Part shown: positions 7,950-22,587 of the stretch, one piece after another
Position numbering within the stretch: the first letter of the stretch is position 1
How the letters are laid out: the number at the start of each line of letters is the position of its first letter
IMG/VR virus record: IMGVR_UViG_3300030106_006344
Span: 1 to 29,708 of that record
Length of the DNA stretch: 29,708 bases
Strand: one strand, 5' to 3'
Origin: a virus
Program-made: the position numbers and the translations under genes
Notes under the pieces: model-generated
Told to the model about the DNA's origin: nothing
Database searches by the model: none
The model's input: only the letters and a program-made list of their open reading frames with translations

Positions 7950-7966
7950 TAGGAGGTAAACTCCTA
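7950..7966 (+). promoter_or_regulatory. Hairpin hiding the ribosome binding site
   Basis: TAGGAG (7950-7955), loop GTAAA, CTCCTA (7961-7966) form a 6-bp stem. The 5' arm contains the AGGAG site and the last pair uses the A of the start codon at 7966. The upstream stop codon ends at 7949, so a ribosome finishing the previous gene would open the stem. This suggests translational coupling. Confidence 0.5.
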
Positions 7967-9840
7967 TGGCGAGTAAAATCTATACAGTTACCGTTGCTAC
8001 CGGTAGTTCATACGGTGGTGGTACAGGTAATGTATATTATTTAGACGGCGTTCGAAATGCGACTGGACCAGGTACAGTAGATTGGGTTACAGGTGCAACA
8101 CTTCGTTTTGAACAAAGTGATGCATCAAATGATTTTCATCCGTTAATTTTTTCTACAACTACAAGTCGAGATCAAATAATTTCGGCTAACGTAACTTATT
8201 ATCTTGATGGATCTAGCGATCAAGCAAATTACATAAACACAACTACATTTAATAACGCGACTACGCGGTATGTTGAAATAACTCCGCAGAGTCAAACAGA
8301 TTTTTATTATCTATGTTATGTGCATGGCATAGGTATGGGTGGAGTCATGAACATGACTCAAGATACTTGGAGTGCATTAGCATGGAACCATGGTCAATGG
8401 GGCGATCAAGATAATTCAACTTTACAACTTTCTGGTTTTTCTTTACCGATGGAACTTGGAGATGAATCCTCAACTCCTAGTTCTGGTTGGAGTTCTGCTG
8501 AGTGGGGTGATAACTCTTGGGGCAGCACAAACAATTTCTTACAACCAACTGGTTTTTCTTTAACTTCTAACCTTGGAACTTTAGATGCAGTCTTTCCTAG
8601 TTCTGGATGGGGCGGTGAATCTTGGAGTGAAGGAAGTTGGGGATCAGTTGGAACTGGAGATCAGATTGTAACTGGATTTGGTTTAGGAGTTGCACTTGGA
8701 AACGTAGGACAAACATCAAGTACAGGTTGGGGAAGATCAACTTGGGGCTCTCAAGTATGGAATGGTTTTGCAGATGTAATTCTTTCTGGTCAAGCAATGA
8801 CCGCAACTGTCGGTGATGAATTAATTAATACTGATATTAACTCTGGTTGGGGTGGTTCTCCATGGGGACATACTGGTTGGGGTGCTTATGGAACTTGTAT
8901 TTTAACTGGAAATGCTATTTCAACAACGCTTGCTAGCGTAACAATAGATAACGAAATTAATACTGGTTGGGGATCTGACGGTTGGGGCGTTGAAGGATGG
9001 GGAGAATCTATTCAAGTAGTTTCTGTTTCAGGTCAAACTATGACAGCCGCAGAAGGTTCTAGCGGAATAGAATTTGATGGAGATTCAAATGTAACAGCTG
9101 TTGGTAGATCAATGACAGTAAGTGCTCCTGCAACAGTAGAAGCTTTTGCTGCGTTTGTAGCAGAACCAACTGGTTTCCCTATGGGAATGAGTTTAACATT
9201 TGATGTTGCTAACGTTCCTACAACAGGATTTCCATTATCAGCTACTTTAGGAACGGCTATAGGAGATAATATTACATTTGCAGAAGTAAATGCATTCTCT
9301 GCTGGATATTGGGGATACAAATCTGCATGGGGTAATTTCGCATGGGGTAATGGACAAACAAATACTCTTGTAATGAGTATGTTAGAAAACTTCTCTGGTG
9401 CAGACCCTGCTCCAGATGCTGAAGCTACAGGTCAAGCTATGGCAATTGCTTTAGCTGCTGGCGATACTTTTGATATCAGAGGTGATGCAAATATAGCTCC
9501 ATTAGCTGCTATGGGTTGGAGTGATGCAACTTGGGGCGAATCTAGATGGGGTAATGGTTTATATAGACCAGATACTGATGATATTTTCCCATTGACAGCA
9601 TCTTTAGGAACAGCTACTTTAGATGCTAATACTATTGTTGATCTAACAGGGGTCACTTTACAAACTGTTCAATTAGGATCAGTTACAGTTACTGGAGAAG
9701 GTAACGTAATTCCTACTGGAAATAGCTTGACAATAGCTCAAGGTACAGGTACAAATGTACTGATTTGGAATGCAGTCGATACAGGTTCAGCGCCAACGAC
9801 ACCTCCAGGATGGCAGGAAGTTCCTACAAATGCTGCTTAA
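7966..9840 (+). CDS. Large tail/spike protein: cupredoxin-like head plus Trp repeats
   Basis: Residues 1-130 look like a cupredoxin domain: YTVTVATGS start, HPLIFST with H58, and YYLCYVHGIGMGGVM with C117, H120 and M124, the spacing of type-1 copper ligands (C-x2-H-x3-M). Residues 135-528 hold eight clusters of three Trp spaced W-x4-W-x4-W (one has x5), such as W135/140/145, W175/180/185 and W518/523/528, separated by about 30-60 residues rich in 'TGFSL...LG' beta strands. The rest is a similar beta region ending PPGWQEVPTNAA. No enzymatic motif is seen. It sits just before fibre and adhesin genes, so a tail-attached host-contact protein is the best guess. Copper binding is inferred, not shown. 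Confidence 0.7.
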   Translation: MASKIYTVTVATGSSYGGGTGNVYYLDGVRNATGPGTVDWVTGATLRFEQSDASNDFHPLIFSTTTSRDQIISANVTYYLDGSSDQANYINTTTFNNATTRYVEITPQSQTDFYYLCYVHGIGMGGVMNMTQDTWSALAWNHGQWGDQDNSTLQLSGFSLPMELGDESSTPSSGWSSAEWGDNSWGSTNNFLQPTGFSLTSNLGTLDAVFPSSGWGGESWSEGSWGSVGTGDQIVTGFGLGVALGNVGQTSSTGWGRSTWGSQVWNGFADVILSGQAMTATVGDELINTDINSGWGGSPWGHTGWGAYGTCILTGNAISTTLASVTIDNEINTGWGSDGWGVEGWGESIQVVSVSGQTMTAAEGSSGIEFDGDSNVTAVGRSMTVSAPATVEAFAAFVAEPTGFPMGMSLTFDVANVPTTGFPLSATLGTAIGDNITFAEVNAFSAGYWGYKSAWGNFAWGNGQTNTLVMSMLENFSGADPAPDAEATGQAMAIALAAGDTFDIRGDANIAPLAAMGWSDATWGESRWGNGLYRPDTDDIFPLTASLGTATLDANTIVDLTGVTLQTVQLGSVTVTGEGNVIPTGNSLTIAQGTGTNVLIWNAVDTGSAPTTPPGWQEVPTNAA

Positions 9841-9899: not shown

Positions 9900-10970
9900 A
9901 TGGCGAACTCTACATCGGCAAACCTAAAACTTACAGTCCAAGCAACTGGGGAAAACTCGGGAACTTGGGGACAGATAACTAATACAAACTTATTAATTCT
10001 AGAACAAGCAATTGGTGGATTTCAATCAGTTGCAATTACTTCTGGAGCAACTTTAACTTTTTCTAACGGTGCTTTATCAAATGGTAAAAACGCTGTATTA
10101 AAATTAGTTGGAACAATCGGAGGAGCAGTTAACGTAACTATCCCTGATTCAATCGAAAAAACTTTTATAGTTGATAACGCAACTACTGGTGCTTACACAG
10201 TAACTTTCAAAACTACTTCAGGATCTGGAGTAACTTGGGCAGCTGCTGACAAAGGCACTAAAATGGTTTATTCAGATGGAACAAATGTTGTTGATACAGC
10301 ATTTACAGATTTATCATCTGACTTCTCACCACAACTTTCAGCAGACCTAGATGCAAATGGTAAGAACATTACTATTGACACTAACACAGGTATTATTGAT
10401 GAAAATGGAAATGAACAAATTAAATTTTCAACAACTGGATCTGCAGTTAACGAGTTTACAGTAGCTAACGCAGCTACAGGTAATGCTCCAGCAGTTTCTG
10501 TAACTGGTGGCGATACTAACATTGACTTAAACCTTACACCAAAAGGAACGGGTAGAGCGACTTTCAATGGTCAAGGTAAAATTCAAAGTATTGCAGAAAA
10601 AGTTACGACTGAAGCAACAGCTGCTACAGGAACAATCAACTACGATGTTCTTACTCAAGCAGTTTGGAATTTTACATCCAACGCAGCAGCTAACTGGACA
10701 TTAAATATTAGAGGTGATGGATCAAACTCATTAGACTCAATCATGGACACTGGAGAATCAATTACTATAGCGCATTTAGTTACGCAAGGATCAACTCCTT
10801 ACTACAATAGTGCAGTCACTATTGATGGTTCTTCTGTTACTCCTGAATACCAAGGTGGATCAGCTCCATCTTCTGGTAATGCTAGTTCTATAGATGTTTA
10901 TTCATACACAGTTATTAAAACTGGTTCAGCGACGTTTACAGTTTTAGCGTCTCAAACACAGTTTGCGTAA
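9900..10970 (+). CDS. Tail fibre-like protein (356 aa)
   Basis: The N-terminus (NLKLTVQATGENSGTWGQIT, then NTNLLILEQAIGG) is a conserved phage fibre or virion-attachment opening. The middle (about 60-230) is Thr/Ala/Gly/Asn-rich beta sequence with repeated GNGI-like and TPKGTGRATFNGQGKI segments typical of beta-helical fibres. The C-terminus (WNFTSNAAANWTLNIRGDG, YSYTVIKTGSATFTVLASQT) forms a separate beta domain often found at the end of marine phage fibres. It has its own promoter and is followed by the Gly-rich protein. Host receptor binding or fibre stem formation is the probable role. Confidence 0.75.
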   Translation: MANSTSANLKLTVQATGENSGTWGQITNTNLLILEQAIGGFQSVAITSGATLTFSNGALSNGKNAVLKLVGTIGGAVNVTIPDSIEKTFIVDNATTGAYTVTFKTTSGSGVTWAAADKGTKMVYSDGTNVVDTAFTDLSSDFSPQLSADLDANGKNITIDTNTGIIDENGNEQIKFSTTGSAVNEFTVANAATGNAPAVSVTGGDTNIDLNLTPKGTGRATFNGQGKIQSIAEKVTTEATAATGTINYDVLTQAVWNFTSNAAANWTLNIRGDGSNSLDSIMDTGESITIAHLVTQGSTPYYNSAVTIDGSSVTPEYQGGSAPSSGNASSIDVYSYTVIKTGSATFTVLASQTQFA

Positions 10971-10991: not shown

Positions 10992-11921
10992 ATGCCAATA
11001 ATTGCAAGTATCGGAGCAGGATCCGCAAGAGGACTAGGTTTTACATCTGGTTCAGCGGAAGCTGATTTTGATTATTTAGTTTTAGCCGGCGGCGGTGGCG
11101 GAGGAGTTTCGCCCGGAGGCGGCGGCGGAGCGGGAGGCCACAGAACTTCTTTTCCAGGAGGAACTAAAACAACTATTAAATCCGGACAAACAATTACAGT
11201 TGGAGGTGGCGGTAATGGCGGCTACGTTCCAGCGGGATACATTCCAGGAACTCGAGGCGGACTTTCTTCATCAGGAGATATTGAGTCTACAGGAGGAGGA
11301 GCAGCAGTTTCAGACCGAGCAGGCACAGATCCTTCAGGTCCTCCAAATGGAGACGTTTACGGAGACGGCGGATCTGGTGGGGGAACACCTCACAGAGGTG
11401 GTGCCGCAGGTACAGGAAATAAAGGAGGATATACTCCTTCAGAAGGAAATCCAGGAGGAACATCAGGAGATTCAAACTTCCAAGGTTCTGGTGGTGGAGG
11501 AGCTTCAACAGCGGGCACTCCAAACACAACAGGGACTGGCGGAAGCGGTTCTCCAGGAGGAAATGGAGTTTCTAATTCAATCAACGGATCAGCAGTAACT
11601 AGAGCCGGCGGTGGCGGCGGTGGAAATTATAATCCAGGCGGTGCCGGATCAGGCGGCCCAGGTGGCGGCGGAAATGGTGGAAACACTCAAGGAAATAACG
11701 GAACAGCTGGATCAGACGGCCTTGGCGGCGGCGGAGGCGGAGCTGGTTATAACAACGGCGCACAATCTGGTTTTGATGGTGGAAATGGTAAAGTTATTTT
11801 AAGAATTGCAGCTTCTGCTGCACCAGGAGGAATGGCTGTTTCACCAGGAGACAACACTATTGCAGATGATGGATCTGACAAAGTATTAACATTTAACGTA
11901 ACGGGGACTTTAAGTTTATAA
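10992..11921 (+). CDS. Glycine-rich adhesin-like tail protein
   Basis: After a short N-terminus the protein has DYLVLAGGGGGG at about residue 30, then about 220 residues dominated by Gly runs (GGGGG, GGNGG, GPGGGGNGGN), closing with GGNGKVILRIAA and a small C-terminal beta end (VLTFNVTGTLSL). This layout is that of Gly-rich phage adhesins whose polyglycine-II helices form a sandwich, as in T-even gp38, where loops between glycine runs contact the receptor. Glycine codons make the gene much richer in G and C than its neighbours: the row 11641-11700 is 36 of 60 G+C. An AGGAGG site precedes the ATG. It overlaps the next gene by one base. Confidence 0.75.
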   Translation: MPIIASIGAGSARGLGFTSGSAEADFDYLVLAGGGGGGVSPGGGGGAGGHRTSFPGGTKTTIKSGQTITVGGGGNGGYVPAGYIPGTRGGLSSSGDIESTGGGAAVSDRAGTDPSGPPNGDVYGDGGSGGGTPHRGGAAGTGNKGGYTPSEGNPGGTSGDSNFQGSGGGGASTAGTPNTTGTGGSGSPGGNGVSNSINGSAVTRAGGGGGGNYNPGGAGSGGPGGGGNGGNTQGNNGTAGSDGLGGGGGGAGYNNGAQSGFDGGNGKVILRIAASAAPGGMAVSPGDNTIADDGSDKVLTFNVTGTLSL

Positions 11922-12334
11922 TGGCTTATTTTTGTAAATTAACTGAAGAAGGAATAGTAGAGAATGTTATCGTAGTAAGTGATAGCGACGCTCAAAACGA
12001 AGCTCAAGGAGTTCAATTTCTTACAAGACTATATGGTGGTCATCCATATTGGAAAAAATGTGATAGAAATACAAGAGATGGTGTTCATTACGAGCCAAAT
12101 TCAAACACACCTTCTGCAGATCAAAGTCAAGCTTTAAGATGGAACTATCCAGGGATTGATTGGAAATACGACGCTGAATTAGATGCGTTTATTCCACCAA
12201 AACCATATCCTAGTTGGACTTTTAATTCAGCAACTAGAGGCTGGGATTCTCCTCAACCTCATCCTACTTATGACCCAGAAAACCCTGTAGTTTATCAGTG
12301 GAACGAATCCACTCAAACTTGGGACGCAATATAA
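11921..12334 (+). CDS. Small tail-associated phage protein (137 aa)
   Basis: The start MAYFCKLTEEGIVENVIVVS, the central GVQFLTRLYGG and YPGIDWKYDAELDAFIPPKP, and the closing VYQWNESTQTWDAI make a pattern often found in marine phage genomes next to tail fibre genes. No enzymatic motif is visible. The Trp/Pro-rich second half (YPSWTFNSATRGWDSPQPHP) looks like paired beta hairpins. A fibre-associated or fibre-assembly role is inferred from location. It shares one base with the Gly-rich gene, so the two are probably translated together. Confidence 0.75.
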   Translation: MAYFCKLTEEGIVENVIVVSDSDAQNEAQGVQFLTRLYGGHPYWKKCDRNTRDGVHYEPNSNTPSADQSQALRWNYPGIDWKYDAELDAFIPPKPYPSWTFNSATRGWDSPQPHPTYDPENPVVYQWNESTQTWDAI

Positions 12335-12384: not shown

Positions 12385-13002
12385 ATGTTTAACTTAAAAA
12401 ATATTTACTGGGCCTATTGGGGTGCCAGTGGTTTGACTAAAAAAATTTGTAATGAAATAATAAAACAAGGATTATTTCAACGAAGGGAAATGGGTATAAC
12501 AGGTGGCAATACCTATCCTAAAAATAAAAAAGAATTAAAAAAACAACAAAAAATTAGAAACTCTGAGATTAGTTGGATAAATCAATTTTGGGTATATAAA
12601 GAAATAAGACCTTTTATAGAAGCATCAAATAAAGCTGCTGGTTGGAATTATCAATATGATTCTTTTGAAAAATGTCAGTTTACTATCTATGATTCTTCTA
12701 AAGGTAAACAACACTATGATTGGCATACCGATAATAAACCAGGTGAAGAAAGTAAAACGTGTAGAAAAATATCTACAAGTATTCTTTTAAATGATCCTTC
12801 AGAATATGAAGGCGGAGAATTATTGTTTAGATCTTATGTTCCCCCTTATGATAACGTTCCTAAAATAATACATACCAAAGAGATTATGCGACAAGGAACT
12901 GTTATAACCTTTCCATCTTTTGTTATGCATAAGGTAAGCCCTGTCACAAAAGGAATAAGATACAGTTTAGTTATTTGGCACAGAGGAGATAATTTTAAAT
13001 GA
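12385..13002 (+). CDS. 2OG-Fe(II) oxygenase, PKHD/prolyl-hydroxylase-like
   Basis: The C-terminal half is a double-stranded beta helix of the 2-oxoglutarate/Fe(II) type: YDWHTDN gives H114-x-D116, then STSILLNDPSEYEGGELLF, GTVITFPSFVMHKVSPVTKG with distal H182, and IRYSLVIW with R192 as the 2OG anchor. Every expected ligand is present, so it is likely active. Members hydroxylate prolyl, lysyl or other side chains, or small molecules, using O2 and 2OG; the substrate here is unknown. This is the first of seven consecutive relatives, and the next gene starts 4 bases inside it. Confidence 0.88.
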   Translation: MFNLKNIYWAYWGASGLTKKICNEIIKQGLFQRREMGITGGNTYPKNKKELKKQQKIRNSEISWINQFWVYKEIRPFIEASNKAAGWNYQYDSFEKCQFTIYDSSKGKQHYDWHTDNKPGEESKTCRKISTSILLNDPSEYEGGELLFRSYVPPYDNVPKIIHTKEIMRQGTVITFPSFVMHKVSPVTKGIRYSLVIWHRGDNFK

Positions 13003-13688
13003 AAAAGAATTACACTATTTTAAGAAAAATAATATCACCAGAAAAAGCAGAGTTTTTAAAAAATTATTATTTAAATAAAAGAAAAGTTAGTAGACTTTAT
13101 TTTGACACTGCTTTTATATCTCAGTTTAATAAAGAATACGGAATATGGAATGATCCTCAATGTATGGGTGCTTGGTCCAACTATGGAGATATAGCAGGAG
13201 ATACATTGTTAGAAGAATTACAGCCAATCGTTGAAAAATTTTTTAAGAAAAAACTATATCCAACTTATTCTTATGTAAGAGTTTATGAAAAAGGTCATTT
13301 ATTAGCAAGACACAAAGATAGAGAAAGCTGTGAGCTATCAACTACTTTAAATTTAGGAGGCACTGAGTGGCCTATTTACATAGATGAAAATCCTAAATCT
13401 GGTTTTTGGATTACAAAAGATTCTAAAGTAAAAGGAAATATAAGTATTAAAAAAGAAAACGATTATTATTCAGAGTTTAACAAAGGTAAAAAAGTTATTT
13501 TAAAACCTGGAGATATGTTGGTTTATCAGGGTGATAAGAACGAACATTGGCGAGAGCCTCTATCTCACGGAATGTGTGTTCAAATATTTTTACACTATGT
13601 TGATCAAACAGGTAAATTTCAAAAAAATATCTATGATAACAGACCTATGTTAGGAGTAGATAGTTCATTACAAAGAAAGGAGGATTAA
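12999..13688 (+). CDS. 2OG-Fe(II) oxygenase-family protein
   Basis: The iron site pattern is ARHKDRESCE (H105-x-D107) and, after VILKPGDMLVYQGDKNEHW, distal H183. The strand GMCVQIFLHYV that usually carries the 2OG-binding Arg/Lys has neither in the expected place; R185 in HWREP is the likely substitute, as in some phage relatives. The centre contains the family's CELSTTLNLGGTEWPIYIDE strand. At 229 aa it is the longest of the seven, with extra sequence between strands at about 135-165. It overlaps its upstream neighbour by an ATGA. Substrate unknown. Confidence 0.8.
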   Translation: MKKNYTILRKIISPEKAEFLKNYYLNKRKVSRLYFDTAFISQFNKEYGIWNDPQCMGAWSNYGDIAGDTLLEELQPIVEKFFKKKLYPTYSYVRVYEKGHLLARHKDRESCELSTTLNLGGTEWPIYIDENPKSGFWITKDSKVKGNISIKKENDYYSEFNKGKKVILKPGDMLVYQGDKNEHWREPLSHGMCVQIFLHYVDQTGKFQKNIYDNRPMLGVDSSLQRKED

Positions 13689-13689
13689 T

Positions 13690-13926
13690 ATGAATAATAT
13701 CGGTGCACCAGTTGCAGAAAAAGGACCAAACGATCTAGAAGCTACTATAGAAAAACAAAGATGTAAAATAGAAGAACTAGAATCCGTTATAAAATCAGAG
13801 GTTATGTATAATAAATATTTTAAACAAACCGTTAAAAGTGCAGAAATTCAGTTAGAGTTGTTAGCTAAACTAAACAAAGATTTAATTGAAGAGAACGCTA
13901 GACTAAAACTTTTGGTACAAAAATGA
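13690..13926 (+). CDS. Small coiled-coil protein inside oxygenase cluster
   Basis: The 78-residue product is almost entirely a charged coiled coil (LEATIEKQRCKIEELESVIK, then QLELLAKLNKDLIEENARLK). It has one of the best ribosome binding sites of the cluster (AAGGAGG, 8-9 bases before the ATG), while most oxygenases around it rely on overlap with the previous gene. It overlaps the next start by 4 bases. It could tether oxygenases to each other or to a virion protein, but that is speculation; no family is recognised. Confidence 0.7.
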   Translation: MNNIGAPVAEKGPNDLEATIEKQRCKIEELESVIKSEVMYNKYFKQTVKSAEIQLELLAKLNKDLIEENARLKLLVQK

Positions 13927-14516
13927 ATATAGAAGCAAATTTTTATTATCTTGGACCATTATTATATCGAACTAAAGTTTTTAATGAGGACTTAATAAAA
14001 ATATTTAAGTTAAATCAAAGAAGTAAAAAGCTTGATCACAGAAGTAGATTAGCTGGACATATTAAAAAAGAACATACTTTTGAAGATTTAGATAAACTTA
14101 GAAAAATTTTAGATCCTTATCTATTGTCCTTTAATTCAGTTTATCAAGAATGGTACGGTGATAGAATAAAACCCTATAAGATAGAATCTGCTTGGATAAA
14201 TTCTATGGTAGCGGGTGAATACAACCCTGTTCATTGTCATGTAAACTGTAATTGGTCAGCTGTAATGTTTTTAAAAATACCCGATAAACTAAAACGGGAA
14301 CAAGAAAAACACATAGGCACTGCATCTAAACCAGGTAGTATAAGTTTTTTAGCAGGGCCTGTTGTAGAAAATTATATTAATTTTAAAACTTTTACTCCGC
14401 AAAATGGAGACTTATTTATATTTCCTAAAAATTTATATCATTTTGTTGAACCATTTAAATCAAAAGGAGAAAGGATATCGTTAGCCTTTAATTTAGAATA
14501 TGAAGATAATAGATAA
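13923..14516 (+). CDS. 2OG-Fe(II) oxygenase-family protein (Oxy_5-like)
   Basis: The pattern follows the 2OG-FeII_Oxy_5 (PF13759) type: WINSMVAGEYNPVHCHVNCN with H104-x-H106, a following VMFLKIP strand, NGDLFIFPKNLYHFVEPF with distal H173, and GERISLAFNLEY with R184. In that family H-x-H in place of H-x-D is usual as I recall it. The N-terminal half (LGPLLYRTKVFNEDLIKIF) is the helical front of the family. It overlaps both neighbours, the downstream one by 17 bases. Substrate unknown. Confidence 0.8.
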   Translation: MNIEANFYYLGPLLYRTKVFNEDLIKIFKLNQRSKKLDHRSRLAGHIKKEHTFEDLDKLRKILDPYLLSFNSVYQEWYGDRIKPYKIESAWINSMVAGEYNPVHCHVNCNWSAVMFLKIPDKLKREQEKHIGTASKPGSISFLAGPVVENYINFKTFTPQNGDLFIFPKNLYHFVEPFKSKGERISLAFNLEYEDNR

Positions 14517-14994
14517 TTTTATAGATCAAGAATCATTCAATATATTACAAAAGACTATGATTGGAGATGACAATCAATTTGCTTGGTATCACTCTCATTA
14601 TAAAAATTTTAAAGGAGATGGTATGTCTCAATTCATACACATGTTTTTTATGCCTTACACTTATCAAAGTAATTTTCATCCTTTGATACATCCTATACTA
14701 GATAAGTTACAGGCGACAGCTTTGATAAGAATTAAAGCTAATCTTACAATGAAAACTCCAAAACCTCATACCTGTCATTTTCATGTAGATGTTGCAGAAA
14801 ACTATAAACATTCAAAAACTGCTGTGTTTTATGTAAATACTAATAATGGTTATACGTTATTTAAAAAAGGAAAAAAGAAAGTTGCTAGCGTTGCAAATAG
14901 AATAGTTATCTTTGATGCCAAAGAAGAACACACAACTGTTACTCAAACAGATACCAATATTAGAGTGGTTATTAATTTAAATTTTTTTAATTAA
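14500..14994 (+). CDS. Compact 2OG-Fe(II) oxygenase-family protein
   Basis: At 164 residues this is the shortest of the seven. It has CHFHVDVAENYKHSKTAVFY with H95-x-D97, the NTNNGYTLF turn, NRIVIFDAKEEHTTVT with distal H144, and TNIRVVINLNFF with R155. All ligands of an active enzyme are present. This short type (HVD ... NTNNGYT ... NRIVIFD) is common in marine phage genomes. The ATG lies 17 bases before the upstream stop, so reinitiation or coupling is likely. Confidence 0.85.
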   Translation: MKIIDNFIDQESFNILQKTMIGDDNQFAWYHSHYKNFKGDGMSQFIHMFFMPYTYQSNFHPLIHPILDKLQATALIRIKANLTMKTPKPHTCHFHVDVAENYKHSKTAVFYVNTNNGYTLFKKGKKKVASVANRIVIFDAKEEHTTVTQTDTNIRVVINLNFFN

Positions 14995-15527
14995 TGTCAA
15001 TTTATTTTAAGCAAAGTAAAAATTTTATGACGGAGAATAATATTAAGTTTATAGAGAAAACCGTTTTAAATGATAACTTTCCATATTTTTTTAATTCTAA
15101 TACATTAACAAACAAAGACGATGCTTTTTTTAGTCACCAAGTATTGCAAAGATTAGAACTATCTCCTAATTATACCCCTGTTAATTCAGAAGCTTTTGCA
15201 CCTACCATAGATATTCTTAACAACTTTGTTAATTCAATATCTGAAAAAGTAAATTTTTATACACGAATTTCCTATAACATGACTTTTAATAATGGGTATG
15301 AAAAAAGCGGAACGCATATAGATCATGAATATCCACACAAACAAATAATAATTTATTTAAACGATGCAGATAAAAAATCAAAAACCTGTATAGTGGATGA
15401 AAAAGATAAAGTAATTAAAAGCATTAGCCCTGAAAAATATAAAGGTATATGCTTTGATGCTCAACGTCATTTTAATTATAATCCTGCAACCAAACATAGA
15501 TTGATACTAGTAGCTACATTTATATGA
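14994..15527 (+). CDS. 2OG-Fe(II) oxygenase-family protein
   Basis: YEKSGTHIDHEYPHKQIIIY gives H108-x-D110, YLNDADKKSK and TCIVDEKDKV follow as strands, KGICFDAQRHFNYNPAT gives distal H159 and KHRLILVATF gives R169. The order and spacing match the short phage-type oxygenases such as its upstream neighbour, but sequence identity looks low, so this is not a recent duplicate. The first base of its ATG is the last base of the previous stop. It ends in an ATGA overlap with the next gene. Confidence 0.83.
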   Translation: MSIYFKQSKNFMTENNIKFIEKTVLNDNFPYFFNSNTLTNKDDAFFSHQVLQRLELSPNYTPVNSEAFAPTIDILNNFVNSISEKVNFYTRISYNMTFNNGYEKSGTHIDHEYPHKQIIIYLNDADKKSKTCIVDEKDKVIKSISPEKYKGICFDAQRHFNYNPATKHRLILVATFI

Positions 15528-16096
15528 TAAATAACTTTATAGAAAAATATACGATTGATAAAAAAATTTGTAGAGGACTGATAGAGTTATTTGAAAATAA
15601 CTCTGATAAACATAACCGGGGTATATTAAATTCCAGAAGAGCAGACTCTGTTAAAAAATCTACCGATATTAGTATTCCTAGTAATTATAATAAAAGTAAA
15701 TACTTCACTGATTATTTAAAAGAACTAACCAAAGCATTAAATAAATATCAAAAAAAATATATTTATAGTGATAAACATCAATGCATGTATGGTATATGTG
15801 AAAACATAAACATACAAAAATATAAACCAAAAGAAGGTTTTTATATTTGGCATCATGAAAACGATGGAACTTTTGAAAGTAAAAATAGACATCTGGTATT
15901 TATGACTTATTTAAATGATGTGAAGAATGGTGGTACAGCATTTTTATATCAAAATAAAAAATTTCAAGCTAAAACAGGATCTACATTAATATGGCCTGCA
16001 ACGTGGACACATACTCATAAAGGAGTTATTTCTAAGACACAAACTAAATATATTATTACCGGGTGGTATAGTTATTATAACAATGATAAAGCATAA
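15524..16096 (+). CDS. 2OG-Fe(II) oxygenase-family protein with H-x-E motif
   Basis: GFYIWHHENDGTFESKNRHL places H110-x-E112 where most relatives have H-x-D. VFMTYLNDVKNGGTAFLYQ is the usual next strand, GSTLIWPATWTHTHKGV supplies distal H163 or H165, and QTKYIITGWYSY supplies K175 in place of the usual Arg. The WHxE / THTH / KYIxTGW set is, as I recall it, a coherent subfamily rather than decay, so activity is plausible. It overlaps the next gene by 14 bases. Substrate unknown. Confidence 0.82.
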   Translation: MINNFIEKYTIDKKICRGLIELFENNSDKHNRGILNSRRADSVKKSTDISIPSNYNKSKYFTDYLKELTKALNKYQKKYIYSDKHQCMYGICENINIQKYKPKEGFYIWHHENDGTFESKNRHLVFMTYLNDVKNGGTAFLYQNKKFQAKTGSTLIWPATWTHTHKGVISKTQTKYIITGWYSYYNNDKA

Positions 16097-16679
16097 TTTA
16101 TTTCCAACTCTTATAACTGAAACAAATAATTTTCTATCTAGTATTCAATGCAATGATATATACAAGTATATTGTTAATAATAAAAAACTATTAAATAAAC
16201 ACCCTGCTATTACTACAGATCAATCAGGGTCTAGTCATTCTTCTATATCTAATTTTTTAATGCAGGTTCAAGGAGATGTACCTTCATGCTATAATATTAT
16301 CAATACAATCTTAGATACAAGTAAAGATTATTTAAAGACCTCATCTTTTAGTGCAAAGAATAGGTTAGACAATTCGTGGTTTAATATTCAAACTAAAGAC
16401 TCTATGTTAAAAGAACATACACATCCTTTATCTGTTTTATCTGGAGTAATTTTTATTAAGTCAGATAAAAACTCTAGCAAAGTTTATTTTGAAAATCCTA
16501 ATCCTTTTTTAAAGATAACTTCATTTAATGAAGGTAATAATCCTCACAGTTCTAAATCGTTTTCTTTTGTAGCAACCCCAGGCACAATGTTATTATTCCC
16601 TGCTTGGTTAACTCATGGCTCAAATAACGTAGCAAATAAAAGTAAAGAAAGAATTGTGTTAAGCTTTAATATTGTGTGA
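16083..16679 (+). CDS. 2OG-Fe(II) oxygenase-family protein (Oxy_5-like)
   Basis: This is the second protein of the 2OG-FeII_Oxy_5 kind. SWFNIQTKDSMLKEHTHPLS gives H112-x-H114, SVLSGVIFIK follows, GTMLLFPAWLTHGSNN gives distal H178 and KERIVLSFNIV gives R190. The start MIKHNLFPTLITETNNF matches the usual 'FPTxI' opening of that family. The gene begins inside the end of its upstream neighbour, and its TGA stop overlaps a GTG start of the next gene (GTGA). It closes the oxygenase run. Confidence 0.83.
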   Translation: MIKHNLFPTLITETNNFLSSIQCNDIYKYIVNNKKLLNKHPAITTDQSGSSHSSISNFLMQVQGDVPSCYNIINTILDTSKDYLKTSSFSAKNRLDNSWFNIQTKDSMLKEHTHPLSVLSGVIFIKSDKNSSKVYFENPNPFLKITSFNEGNNPHSSKSFSFVATPGTMLLFPAWLTHGSNNVANKSKERIVLSFNIV

Positions 16680-16987
16680 CTTTTTTAAATAAATTAAAAG
16701 ACAAAAAATTTGCATCTCAGAGTCAGAGAAAAAAAGAACTGTGGGATGTCGAAGGTATATTACATAATCAAAATTTAAAGTTTGATTTACGACCTTTAAA
16801 AAATAATGGTAAACAAGGATCTTTCAAAACTCAGGCTGACAAGATTGTTTATGATATAAAAGATCAATATATTATTGTGGATGTACCCGAGCTTCATACA
16901 TATTTAAAAGAGAAAAAGCTAAAAAAGGTAGTCTTGGAGGAGTTGATCTCTGCCCTGGAGTGGAATATAATACTACCAAAAATATAA
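16676..16987 (+). CDS. Hypothetical protein before nozzle gene (103 aa)
   Basis: The start is a GTG overlapping the previous stop as GTGA, with no good alternative ATG. The product (LNKLKDKKFASQSQRKKELW, then DVEGILHNQNLKFDLRPLKN) is charged, with a KQGSFKTQADKIVYDIKDQY segment and a helical C-terminus. I recall similar small proteins just before the nozzle gene of marine podoviruses, so it may serve tail assembly. No known domain. The ATG of the nozzle gene follows 23 bases after the stop. Confidence 0.7.
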   Translation: MTFLNKLKDKKFASQSQRKKELWDVEGILHNQNLKFDLRPLKNNGKQGSFKTQADKIVYDIKDQYIIVDVPELHTYLKEKKLKKVVLEELISALEWNIILPKI

Positions 16988-17010
16988 AAACTCTATATAA
17001 TACGGGAGTT

Positions 17011-18978
17011 ATGCTACAGAAACTTAATTTTAAACCCGGATTTAATAAACAAGCTACAGATTCAGGGGCAGAAGGCCAATGGGTTGACGGCGATTTTGTT
17101 AGATTTAGATATGGATTACCAGAAAAAATAGGTGGTTGGGAACAATTAACAGTAAGTCAAGAAACATTACCAGGAGCAGCTAGAGCTCAACATGCATTTA
17201 CCAGTTTTGGTGGTGAAAAATATGTAGCGATTGGAACATCTCAAGGTTTATTTTTATACTACGACGAAGCCTTTTATGACATTACCCCATTAGATTCTCA
17301 ACTCGTTGGGGCGGCTACTTTTGATACCGTCAATGGATCAGCTGAAGTAACTGTTAATTTTAGTGGTCATGGATTAGAAGTAGGAAGATATATTACTTTT
17401 GATACCATGAGTGTGACTCCAGGTGGTTTTAGCTCGGCTCTAACATTTACCGAAAAAGCTTTTGAGATTAGAGATGTTACAACCAACACTTTTAAAATTA
17501 CAACTCCTATAGCCGCTGGAGCTGGAGCAACAACTTCTACAGGGTCTGCAACTATTAAGCCGTATGTCACGGTGGGTCCAACATTTCAAACTAGAGGTTA
17601 TGGTTGGAGCACATATCTTTGGGGTGATTCTACATGGGGAACGTCTCGAACAGTAAGTAACGTTATTCTAGATCCAGGCATCTGGAGCCTTGATAACTTT
17701 GGAGAAGTATTAGTTGCAACTATTTTTAACGGAAAAACTTTTACTTGGGACGCAGGTGCATCTGCACCTAGAGGAAACAGGGCCTCTCAAACTACAACAA
17801 ATTTTCAAACAACCAATAATCCTACAGCTAGCAGATTAACTTTGGTATCTGATAGAGATAGACACTTATTTCATTTTGGAACTGAAACAACTATCGGAGA
17901 TTCAACTACACAAGATCCGATGTTTGTAAGATTTTCTAATCAAGAAGATTTAAATACTTATGCACCAACAGCTACTAACACTGCAGGGTCGTTTAGACTA
18001 GACACAGGAAACAAGATTGTAGCTGCTATACAAGGTAAAGATTATGTATTTTGTATAACAGATCAAGCTGCTTATGTTATTCAATTCGTTGGTCCACCAT
18101 TTACTTTTTCTGTAAGACAGGTTGGTACTAATTGTGGATGTATTAGTCCTAAAGGTGTATCGTATGCAAACGGAGCTGTGTGGTGGATGTCAGCTGAAGG
18201 AGGATTCTTTGTCTTCGATGGTACAGTTAAATCATTACCATGTTTAGTTGAGGACTTTGTATTTAGTACAGATGGAGATAATTTAGGAATAAACTATGGA
18301 GCATCTGATATTGTTTATTCATCACCTAACGCTTTATACACAGAGATAAATTGGTTCTATCCTAAATCTGGATCTGAACAAATTGATAGATGTGTAACTT
18401 ATAATTATTCTGAAAACGTATTTACAACTTCTTCATTGGATAGATCAAGCTATCAAGATCAAGGTGTATATTCTGAACCCTACGCAACAGATTATAATTC
18501 TACAGATACACCTGTATTTTCTGACATTAATGGTCTAACAAATCGGTTTGGTGCATCAATATATTATTGTCATGAAAAAGGAGACGATCAAGTAAATAGC
18601 TCTGGTACTACATCTATTAATGCATTTATTAAATCTGGAGACTGGGACATTACATCGAGAAGAAGTGCACTAGGACAGATGACAGGGGTAGCAGACTATA
18701 GAGGAGATGGTGAGTTCTTTATGTCAGTAAAAAGATTTATACCTGATTTTAAATATTTACGTGGTAATTCTACGGTTACATTGTTTTTAAATGACTATCC
18801 AGATAATGCTCCTGTAGGATCTCCACTTGGGCCCTTTACAATAACTAAAACCACTGATAAGATAGATACAAGAGCTAGAGGAAGACTAGTAGCTATTCAA
18901 ATAGCCAATACATCTACAGGCGAGTCTTGGAGATATGGAACCTTTAGACTTGATGCACAACCAGATGGAAGAAGATAA
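17011..18978 (+). CDS. Tail nozzle / P22 gp10-like stabilisation protein
   Basis: The reading frame extends back to a GTG at 16960 inside the previous gene. The ATG at 17011 gives the family's usual opening, MLQKLNFKPGFNKQATD, and is preferred even though its GGGAG site is very close. Residues about 20-45 hold QWVDGDFVRFRYGLPEKIGG, the signature of P22 gp10-like plug/nozzle proteins, followed by beta-propeller-like repeats (DRDRHLFHFGTE, YVFCITDQAAYVIQFVGPPF, GAVWWMSAEGGFFVFDGTV). The family forms the end of the short tail below the adaptor. A W199-x4-W204-x4-W209 motif matches the Trp repeats of the protein at 7966. It lies 9.5 kb from the adaptor genes, with the fibre and oxygenase genes between. 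Confidence 0.85.
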   Translation: MLQKLNFKPGFNKQATDSGAEGQWVDGDFVRFRYGLPEKIGGWEQLTVSQETLPGAARAQHAFTSFGGEKYVAIGTSQGLFLYYDEAFYDITPLDSQLVGAATFDTVNGSAEVTVNFSGHGLEVGRYITFDTMSVTPGGFSSALTFTEKAFEIRDVTTNTFKITTPIAAGAGATTSTGSATIKPYVTVGPTFQTRGYGWSTYLWGDSTWGTSRTVSNVILDPGIWSLDNFGEVLVATIFNGKTFTWDAGASAPRGNRASQTTTNFQTTNNPTASRLTLVSDRDRHLFHFGTETTIGDSTTQDPMFVRFSNQEDLNTYAPTATNTAGSFRLDTGNKIVAAIQGKDYVFCITDQAAYVIQFVGPPFTFSVRQVGTNCGCISPKGVSYANGAVWWMSAEGGFFVFDGTVKSLPCLVEDFVFSTDGDNLGINYGASDIVYSSPNALYTEINWFYPKSGSEQIDRCVTYNYSENVFTTSSLDRSSYQDQGVYSEPYATDYNSTDTPVFSDINGLTNRFGASIYYCHEKGDDQVNSSGTTSINAFIKSGDWDITSRRSALGQMTGVADYRGDGEFFMSVKRFIPDFKYLRGNSTVTLFLNDYPDNAPVGSPLGPFTITKTTDKIDTRARGRLVAIQIANTSTGESWRYGTFRLDAQPDGRR

Positions 18979-20589: not shown

Positions 20590-20770
20590 TGTATATAAAA
20601 TAGATTGCACTACGATAACTACGTGGCGTAATACTAAAACTGGTGAAGTATTTAAAGAAAAGAAAGAAGGAACTGATATAGTTCAAGATGTAACTGTACA
20701 AGTTTCTCCGAAAGGCTTAGACATAATGCAGAAAGTAATGAATCAAAAAAATGATAAACCAAAAACCTAA
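20576..20770 (+). CDS. Small hypothetical protein (64 aa)
   Basis: The short product starts MKTDNVYKIDCTTITTWRNT and continues KTGEVFKEKKEGTDIVQDVT, a beta hairpin-like stretch, then a helix (GLDIMQKVMNQK). It overlaps the upstream gene by 14 bases and the glycosyltransferase by 20 bases. Strong positional packing and normal codon use support a real gene. Function unknown. Confidence 0.65.
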   Translation: MKTDNVYKIDCTTITTWRNTKTGEVFKEKKEGTDIVQDVTVQVSPKGLDIMQKVMNQKNDKPKT

Positions 20771-21692
20771 CGGCGGAACTGAATTACAATTCGACTATTT
20801 ATCAAAATACGTTGATGCAAAATTATTAAGTGAAGTACAGATCTGTACATCTGTGCCAGAAAAAATTCCATTACATCCTACAAAAGTAAATATCTTATGG
20901 CAAAAAAATTCTTACGATCAAAGTAATTTATATCCATGGTTTAAAGATAAATCTAATCATGACAAGTATGACTGGTATGTATTTAATAGTCATTGGACTT
21001 ATGAAAAATTTAGAAATCATTTTGATATACCTACACATAAATCTGTAGTAATTAAAAATGGTATAGATAAGATTGGTAAATCAGCACCCTATCAACAAGG
21101 TCAACCTATAAAAATTATTCATCAAAACACACCGTGGCGAGGATTGTCAGTATTATTAGGAGCTATGCAACTAATAAAAAATCCTTTGATAAGTTTAGAT
21201 GTGTATTCGTCTTGTGAGATATACGGAAAAGATTTTTATGAAAGAAACGATCATAACTATAAAGAATTATATAAACAAGCAGAACAATTAGATAACGTAA
21301 ATTACATTGGGTACAAACCAAATGGATTTATAAAAGATCACATGCATACGTATAACATGTATGTTTATCCAAGTATTTTTGAGGAGACATTTTGCATATC
21401 ACTATTGGAAGCAATGGCTGCAGGGTTGTATTGTATTACAACTAATTATGGCGCTCTGTTCGAAACAGGAGCAGAGTTTCCAATGTATATACCTTATGAA
21501 AAAGATTATAGATTACTAGCTAAAAAATTTGCATACGGTATAGAAGCTGCTGCTAATAGTTTACATGAAGAACAAATACATAATCATTTAGAATGTCAAT
21601 CTGCATATGCACAAACATACTACGGTTGGAATAAAATTGGTACATCTTGGAAAAGATTTTTGGAAGGAGCGGTAAATGCAAAAAAGTCCTAA
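20751..21692 (+). CDS. GT4-type glycosyltransferase (GT-B fold)
   Basis: The product has the C-terminal GT4 signature: MYVYPSIFEETFCISLLEAM with E212-x7-E220, the pair that contacts the nucleotide-sugar ribose, then AAGLYCITTNYGALFE. The nucleotide-binding half starts near KIIHQNTPWRGLSVLLGAMQ (121-140), with the usual TPWRGL basic/Gly contact. The N-terminal half is shorter than in cellular GT4 enzymes, so acceptor binding may be reduced or specialised. It would add a hexose to a glycan or protein. The next gene, a GT-A enzyme, starts 17 bases before its end, so the two are one unit. Confidence 0.85.
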   Translation: MINQKPNGGTELQFDYLSKYVDAKLLSEVQICTSVPEKIPLHPTKVNILWQKNSYDQSNLYPWFKDKSNHDKYDWYVFNSHWTYEKFRNHFDIPTHKSVVIKNGIDKIGKSAPYQQGQPIKIIHQNTPWRGLSVLLGAMQLIKNPLISLDVYSSCEIYGKDFYERNDHNYKELYKQAEQLDNVNYIGYKPNGFIKDHMHTYNMYVYPSIFEETFCISLLEAMAAGLYCITTNYGALFETGAEFPMYIPYEKDYRLLAKKFAYGIEAAANSLHEEQIHNHLECQSAYAQTYYGWNKIGTSWKRFLEGAVNAKKS

Positions 21693-22587
21693 AGCGCAAG
21701 GCGCAAACAATGAACCCATCTGGTTTGATAAGCCACCTAAAAACGGGGACACCGAAATTACCACGATCAATATTGGAACGACATCTCCCTACAAAATAAT
21801 GGTATGTACACCTGTGCATAGCGATGTGTCTATGCATTACTGTCAAGCAGTTTTAAAATTTCAACAAGACTGCATGCAAAGAAAAATACTAGTTAGTTAT
21901 ACTTTGATGAAATCATCTTTGGTTACACAAGGTAGAAACTTGTGTGTAGCCGAAATGCTTAACCACCCTGATCATTACACACATTTATTATTTATAGATT
22001 CAGATATAGACTTTCAGTCTAAAACTATTTTTACAATGTTAGAAAAAGATAAGGATGTTATTGGTTGTCCTTATCCTATGAAAACATTTGATTGGGACAA
22101 AGCTTGGAGACGAATGACTACAAAACATAGAGCTGTTAACGACAAAGATGACCTAGCAAAAGCTGGATATACATTTCCTTTAAAAGTAGAAGATCCTACA
22201 AAAATACAAGTAGAGGATGGAGTAGCAGAAGTAACTCATGCTCCTACAGGCTGTATGTTAATTAAAAGAGAAGTCATAGAAAAGATGATAAAACACTATC
22301 CTGAATTAGAAATATATCAGCCAACCATAATTAATGGTAATACAGAAAAAAAAGACAATATGTTCAATCTTTTTGATACTCTTCATGACCCAAAAACTAA
22401 AAGATACTTTGGTGAAGATTTTGGATTCTGTCAAAGATGGTCAGACATGGGTGGTAAAATACACGTGTATTTAAAAGATTATATCACACACATTGGTGAA
22501 TACTCTTATTGTGGTAGATTTTGGGACGACTTGTATCAAGGAAGTCAACCTCTCAAAGGTATTGACGATAGCAAAAAAATCAAATAA
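21676..22587 (+). CDS. GT2-like glycosyltransferase (GT-A fold)
   Basis: The N-terminal Rossmann-like strand (YKIMVCTPVHSDVSMHYCQA, 39-58), SSLVTQGRNLCVAEML, then HLLFIDSDIDFQ with the metal-binding D108-x-D110, and a GEDFGFCQRWSDMGGKIHVY acceptor/base segment (246-265) mark a GT-A enzyme of the GT2 or related kind. HIGEYSYCG (272-280) is typical of phage members. It would use a nucleotide sugar and metal to glycosylate a glycan or protein. Virion proteins or the host surface are possible targets. Confidence 0.85.
   Translation: MQKSPKAQGANNEPIWFDKPPKNGDTEITTINIGTTSPYKIMVCTPVHSDVSMHYCQAVLKFQQDCMQRKILVSYTLMKSSLVTQGRNLCVAEMLNHPDHYTHLLFIDSDIDFQSKTIFTMLEKDKDVIGCPYPMKTFDWDKAWRRMTTKHRAVNDKDDLAKAGYTFPLKVEDPTKIQVEDGVAEVTHAPTGCMLIKREVIEKMIKHYPELEIYQPTIINGNTEKKDNMFNLFDTLHDPKTKRYFGEDFGFCQRWSDMGGKIHVYLKDYITHIGEYSYCGRFWDDLYQGSQPLKGIDDSKKIK

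Follow-up and report, generated by a model that had tools for sequence, protein, structure and literature searches.

Genes for 2-oxoglutarate- and iron(II)-dependent (2OG-Fe(II)) oxygenases are common in marine phages but unexplained, and they are read as metabolic genes, partly through a 'ferrochelatase' gene that has been reported as their partner (PMC9599517, PMC11561400). The closest described systems come from two groups. In pelagiphages of the HTVC023P type, eight non-orthologous oxygenase genes have been reported, often near each other and with 'ferrochelatase' neighbours (PMC9599517); the available text on T4-like cyanophages likewise describes many divergent paralogues per genome, from families PF13640 and PF13759 (PMC9602691, PMC3037559), with 24 such genes in phage S-SCSM1 (PMC9602691). 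Here we analyse an array of seven 2OG-Fe(II) oxygenase genes that spans positions 12385-16679 of the IMG/VR virus record IMGVR_UViG_3300030106_006344. This record is a 29.7-kb virus fragment, and its whole stretch of 29,708 nucleotides is called the window below.

The window falls into the first of these groups. Its tail nozzle protein (gp10-like; 16960-18978, plus strand; phrog_3287, E 4.3e-75), which also anchors our survey, is 75% identical to gp75 of HTVC027P and 55% identical to gp72 of HTVC023P, and from GroES to the large structural protein its genes follow the same order as in both phages. By homologous nozzle and late-gene order the window is thus assigned to an HTVC023P/HTVC027P-type pelagiphage, and these same matches make a SAR11 bacterium (Pelagibacter) the probable host. 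Several features separate the locus from published descriptions. The pelagiphage genes in PMC9599517 are described as nearby but non-adjacent and their neighbours are taken for ferrochelatases, whereas here the genes form contiguous arrays of up to 9-11 members, and proteins labelled ferrochelatase and endonuclease V are themselves oxygenases. The cyanophage papers, in their available text, deal with gene counts and metabolic roles and do not describe contiguity or a position beside a glycine-rich (Gly-rich) adhesin pair. As far as that text goes, it was already known that phages can hold multiple oxygenases (PMC9602691) and that those of HTVC023P-type phages are co-located (PMC9599517); the contiguity, the relabelled members, the one-per-subfamily make-up, and the pairing with a Gly-rich protein and a phrog_7759 protein in unrelated phages are new.

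Seven oxygenases of one superfamily

All seven oxygenase open reading frames (ORFs) lie on the plus strand. The original prediction, made from the letters of the sequence, had read a metal site in each—H-x-D in four genes, H-x-H in two, and H-x-E in one, with a distal His in every case—and this tally holds, as do the overlaps of 1-17 bases between neighbouring array genes. It had also called the seven genes consecutive; they do share one locus, but a 78-residue ORF (13690-13926) splits genes 2 and 3.

The PHROG database places all seven genes in four families. Gene 1 (12385-13002; H114xD116..H182) and gene 6 (15524-16096; H110xE112..H165) belong to phrog_61; both match PF13640 (E 4.8e-14 and 1.5e-10), and the former is P4H/PKHD-like, with a match to the PKHD-type PiuC (E 4e-7). 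Gene 2 (12999-13688; H105xD107..H183) is the only phrog_2954 member. Genes 3 (13923-14516; H104xH106..H173) and 7 (16083-16679; H112xH114..H178) belong to phrog_81 and to PF13759 (E 5.7e-19 and 2.5e-17). Genes 4 (14500-14994; H95xD97..H144; phrog_274, E 5.8e-43) and 5 (14994-15527; H108xD110..H159, the alignment column being one residue off) belong to phrog_274. For genes 1, 3, 6, and 7, matches to the Pfam models 2OG-FeII_Oxy_3 and 2OG-FeII_Oxy_5 exceed the curated cut-off; the oxygenase matches of genes 2 and 4 fall short of it, and gene 5 has no Pfam match at all.

Evidence for a single superfamily comes from iterated profiles that were grown from single array members and run on 2,052 ORFs. 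With gene 2 set aside, a profile started from any of the six remaining genes finds that whole set of six, and the gene 6 and gene 7 profiles pick up gene 2 as well; the members therefore belong together. Genes 2 and 5 were the least certain members and were modelled with AlphaFold2. The gene 2 profile had no match in a sequence search of the PDB, so fold comparison was used: residues 1-229 of the model (predicted local distance difference test score, pLDDT, 87.5) align with SnoN (Z-score 17.4), the P4H of P. putida (16.6), and PHD2 (16.3), and the full-length alignments to SnoN, bacterial P4H, PHD2, and PiuC all fall at Z 15-17. The gene 5 model (pLDDT 90.1) aligns over its full length with 6n1f (Z 16.1), PHD2 (Z 14.8), and a PKHD-type oxygenase, in the range Z 14-16. 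The two weakest members thus have predicted oxygenase folds at Z 14-17, as the original prediction required. A joint profile of the gene 4/5 family also matches human PHD2 at E 2.8e-10, which denotes kinship rather than prolyl hydroxylase activity. The double-stranded beta-helix (jelly-roll) fold is accordingly assigned to genes 2 and 5 by model, and to genes 1, 3, 6, and 7 by Pfam and PDB sequence matches.

The active sites are conserved, with variations that follow recognisable subfamilies. Five of the seven genes carry the H-x-D/E...H triad, and genes 3 and 7 have H-x-H plus His; the solved relative 2RG4 has the same arrangement, so H-x-H is normal for that subfamily. 2RG4 and 3BVC are solved, uncharacterised, non-phage oxygenases of PF13759 that resemble genes 7 and 3 in motif and in sequence (E 1.4e-7 between gene 7 and 2RG4; weak matches of gene 3 to 3BVC and 2RG4). 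The column that usually anchors 2OG holds Arg or Lys in six of the seven genes by sequence alignment; in gene 2 and its homologues it holds Gln (Gln195). Gene 6 combines Glu with a Lys anchor, a pairing that is the rule in its 40-member subfamily. The array proteins are like PHD2/EGLN1, bacterial P4H, and the PKHD-type PiuC in fold, metal triad, and size, at identities of about 10-17%; they differ from these in the H-x-H of genes 3 and 7 and the anchor Gln of gene 2. Taken together, profiles, motifs, and models identify all seven genes as 2OG-Fe(II) oxygenases that share a superfamily and retain their active sites.

This identification bears on current annotation. The PHROG, RefSeq, and GenBank databases label these phage proteins 'ferrochelatase' (phrog_2954) or 'DNA endonuclease V' (phrog_274); phrog_61 and phrog_81 carry the PHROG name '2OG-Fe(II) oxygenase'. 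A ferrochelatase, with its alpha/beta chelatase fold, was considered for gene 2 and phrog_2954 and rejected on the model alignments given above. All three metal ligands are among the invariant residues of 36 aligned phrog_2954 sequences, no ferrochelatase Pfam model occurs among the matches of these 36 members at E<=0.1, and their only relevant Pfam match is to 2OG-FeII_Oxy_2 (E 0.001, below cut-off). Because fold model, invariant HxD..H, and profile linkage agree, we regard phrog_2954 as an oxygenase family, and for members of this family the published 'ferrochelatase' partner is therefore another oxygenase. A T4-type DNA endonuclease V (DenV) was likewise rejected for genes 4 and 5, given the full-length 2OG oxygenase fold of the gene 5 model; 32 of 40 members of the phrog_274 family match 2OG-FeII_Oxy_3. 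By sequence and model, then, the phage members of both families are oxygenases of this superfamily and the labels are unsupported. Both PHROG labels need correction, and the ferrochelatase label underlies two ecology papers.

Array size, make-up, and turnover across marine phages

For comparison, 80 loci with a related nozzle gene were taken from IMG/VR; array sizes in this set are lower bounds owing to contig ends. The number of oxygenases 5' of the nozzle ranges from 0 to 9 per locus, and all 80 loci together hold three 3' of it, which serves as an internal control of specificity. In the 61 loci that reach 3 kb or more upstream, runs of 3-5 form the largest class, and the window is one of five loci with at least seven; two further HTVC023P-type contigs carry 11-gene runs (L212, L214). 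No oxygenase was detected outside the tail locus in HTVC023P, HTVC027P, 023Pt_psg01, or a 62-kb contig.

Arrays also occur well beyond this group. Relatives were found by tblastn in hundreds of T4-like cyanophages and in pelagimyophages, with nine array members in S-RSM4 (88.7-95.0 kb), nine in S-SM1 (33.5-39.7 kb), five in HTVC008M, and six in Mosig; public annotations of these arrays mix oxygenase, ferrochelatase, endonuclease (V), and hypothetical protein. A second S-RSM4 cluster (151.6-155.4 kb; L091 7556-11419) is interleaved with a tail assembly chaperone and adjoins virion structural and short-tail-fibre genes. A run of seven had been thought unusual; these run lengths refute it as an outlier, since runs of 3-6 are typical at the locus, runs of 8, 9, and 11 occur, and T4-like cyanophages in culture hold 9-gene arrays. 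An assembly chimera was also considered and is very unlikely, because comparable arrays are found in the cultured phages HTVC023P, HTVC027P, S-RSM4, S-SM1, HTVC008M, and Mosig. The array of the SAR11 phage Mosig ends with genes that carry the annotations haem oxygenase and phycocyanobilin:ferredoxin oxidoreductase (39.7-40.9 kb; L093 9651-10887).

When 267 array members were grouped by BLAST at E 1e-15 to 1e-20, they fell into 45-54 subfamilies, and at the stricter setting there were 5 same-subfamily pairs within a locus against about 35 expected by shuffling; the lowest count in 1,000 shuffles was 19. Each array is thus a non-redundant set of distinct enzymes in which a subfamily is almost never repeated, in line with the earlier expectation of different enzymes. 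The view that the members are too divergent for a fresh tandem duplication stands as well: within-array BLAST matches have E values of about 0.001 or worse, near noise, and together with the depletion of same-subfamily pairs this rules out recent tandem duplication.

Conservation across the 267 members is high, with the catalytic His present in 261, Asp/His/Glu in 265, and the distal His in 257 (about 96-99%); a triad this near to invariant argues that array members are active enzymes. Active-site types follow subfamily: Glu with Lys, Asp with Arg, Asp with Gln, and His with Arg. At the anchor column, 15 members combine H-x-H with Phe and 43 combine Asp with Gln; these subfamilies may hold the co-substrate in a different pose or perform non-2OG chemistry. 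Array content turns over fast—of the five array genes at a locus with 85% nozzle identity to the window (L007), two fall into subfamilies that the window also has. Orientation varies too, and in one lineage that includes HTVC027P the array lies on the opposite strand. In this lineage (L002, L009-L014, L031, L036-L038, L058, and others) the Gly-rich adhesin is missing, and the entire array runs opposite to the late genes.

Adhesin pairing and candidate roles of the array

In the window, the array sits in a late-gene run directly 3' of two genes that recur at its side. The first gene of a conserved trio encodes a Gly-rich (34% Gly), adhesin-like tail protein (10992-11921, plus strand; phrog_2295, E 3.3e-28; Gly_rich_2 Pfam match below cut-off), which is the proposed substrate; the second encodes a phrog_7759 protein (11921-12334, plus strand; phrog_7759, E 2.5e-24), the usual partner of Gly-rich tail proteins and a possible assembly factor. 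A Gly-rich ORF lies 5' of the nozzle in 26 of 26 sense-strand HTVC023P-type arrays with room for one, in 0 of 15 antisense arrays, and in 0 of 3 loci without oxygenases. The Gly-rich proteins beside arrays are phrog_2295 in the cases scanned, and in 18 loci a gap of 14-60 bases separates the end of the phrog_7759 gene from the first oxygenase. Antisense arrays lack this pair. The T4-like S-RSM4 and S-SM1 again show tail fibre, phrog_2295, phrog_7759, and array in this order, and in HTVC008M the first three adjoin an inverted array. Both partners are on the 5' side in 37 of 60 metagenomic runs of at least three oxygenases (contigs without an HTVC023P-type nozzle), against 8 of 314 background ORFs on the same contigs for phrog_7759 and 21 of 314 for Gly-rich proteins; the contigs are phylogenetically non-independent, so these figures express association and not probabilities. 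The suggested link to the Gly-rich adhesin has therefore gained strong support from synteny. The tryptophan (Trp)-repeat protein, also named as a possible target, has not: arrays average 4.6 oxygenases with it and 4.0 without, no clear effect.

PDB sequence searches with the Gly-rich and phrog_7759 proteins found nothing. The pair is reminiscent of gp24 and gp25 of phage Pam3 (PMC9608196), a Gly-rich receptor-recognising tail fibre with a dedicated small partner, a chaperone; in contrast to the arrays here, the abstract of that paper makes no mention of oxygenases, and phrog_7759 has no sequence link to any solved chain.

We tentatively favour, at slightly less than an even chance, a role for the array as an exchangeable set of 2OG-Fe(II) oxygenases in the host-attachment module, with the adhesin or fibres of the phage itself as targets. 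The array genes would be expressed together with the fibre genes, and during assembly each enzyme would hydroxylate or otherwise oxidise particular residues of the Gly-rich adhesin or neighbouring fibre proteins. The combination of enzymes would then set the surface chemistry of the receptor-binding tip, and swaps of oxygenase genes would alter that chemistry with the adhesin sequence unchanged. In its full form—combinatorial post-translational modification of the tip, with one oxygenase per subfamily, a hydroxylated Gly-rich adhesin, and attachment chemistry altered by exchange—we consider the proposal rather doubtful; if true, it would create diversity by a route other than diversity-generating retroelements or fibre swapping. 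Among the nearest solved relatives, PHD2 and a P4H solved with EF-Tu support action on the phage's own proteins. PHD2 and bacterial P4H are hydroxylases of proteins. A search of the literature for hydroxylation of phage tails found no relevant paper.

Several observations weigh against such self-modification. Antisense arrays have no Gly-rich gene, so they would need another fibre target or another role, and phylogeny is a confounder of both orientation and adhesin type. Pairs of Gly-rich and phrog_7759 proteins also occur without oxygenases in Melnitz, CRP-143, HTVC025P, Bellamy, and phiPsal1; the oxygenases are therefore an addition to the adhesin module and not essential to it. Single oxygenases are also present in the replication modules of T4-like phages, and the superfamily acts on small molecules and nucleic acids as well. 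The Gly-rich proteins contain no excess of Pro-Gly (183 observed against 198.5 expected) and so give no hint of a collagen-type substrate motif; a collagen-like X-Pro-Gly target gains no support.

Among the alternatives, modification of host surface glycans, lipids, or their precursors survives best, though we judge it unlikely. Here the enzymes would serve receptor masking, superinfection exclusion, or envelope remodelling, and would lie near the fibres since both follow the host surface in their evolution. Genes for a glycosyltransferase and an Anp1-like/phrog_1574 protein do lie 3' in the window, HTVC023P, and HTVC027P, arrays occur without the Gly-rich adhesin, and SnoN, a small-molecule tailoring enzyme, has the highest Z among the structural matches of gene 2. 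However, array size does not follow glycosyltransferase presence (means of 4.3 with and 4.4 without), and unrelated phages show the same close arrangement with a virion adhesin.

Quite unlikely in our estimate is mobile cargo, in which adhesin loci recombine often and assorted oxygenases pile up and turn over with no shared role. The rapid turnover and strand differences described above would fit this, as would the low guanine-plus-cytosine content of the array (26-30%, against 36% for the window); yet the cargo comes almost solely from one superfamily, active sites are conserved, subfamily repeats are avoided, and the same scan finds almost no oxygenases 3' of the nozzle.

Auxiliary metabolism—iron or haem handling, or a 2OG drawdown that affects nitrogen sensing—appears improbable. 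It draws on the 2OG/NtcA proposal of PMC3037559, the ferrochelatase partner genes of PMC9599517 and PMC11561400, iron upregulation in HTVC027P infection (PMC12753301), and the genes annotated as haem oxygenase and PcyA-like that adjoin the Mosig array. The 'ferrochelatase' partner itself has an oxygenase fold, however, and the haem link resting on that label therefore falls; bulk 2OG drawdown, moreover, needs neither many divergent enzymes nor a fixed site by tail genes. Modification or repair of phage or host DNA or RNA (AlkB/TET-like) is highly improbable: related single oxygenases do sit among S-SM1 replication genes (uvsY/uvsW, uvsX/gp41) and 11 of 40 family members match Oxygenase-NA (PF09859) weakly, but podo- and myoviruses alike carry the array genes in their tail module and a single weak Tet_JBP match (E 0.048) was seen among 40 members. 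Adhesin-linked arrays in both virus types make the question of the oxygenase target directly testable on the virions of cultured phages.

Neighbouring genes and array companions

Upstream of the Gly-rich gene lies a tail-fibre protein (9900-10970, plus strand; phrog_31104, with a weak match to the tail-fibre family phrog_12796), preceded by a 624-residue protein with regularly spaced Trp-Gly-type repeats (7966-9840, plus strand). The latter is a probable fibre or tail component and a candidate target outside the core trio; PHROG and Pfam searches with it gave no match, and relatives occur in most HTVC023P-type loci.

Two small ORFs accompany the array. The 78-residue ORF between genes 2 and 3 (plus strand) is coiled-coil-like and has a strong Shine-Dalgarno sequence, AAAGGAGG; it has no PHROG match, and its sole relative is a weak one in one other locus (L015). 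A 103-residue ORF (16676-16987, plus strand) fills the gap between gene 7 and the nozzle, and its relatives in 15 other array loci often lie between oxygenases or adjoin the nozzle. The protein accompanies sense-strand arrays, with a mean of 5.8 oxygenases where it is present and 3.7 where it is absent.

Finally, the tail module also contains a GT1-type glycosyltransferase gene followed by one for an Anp1-like/phrog_1574 protein (20751-22587). This pair is kept in HTVC023P and HTVC027P, and a possible role is glycosylation of the virion or the host surface.

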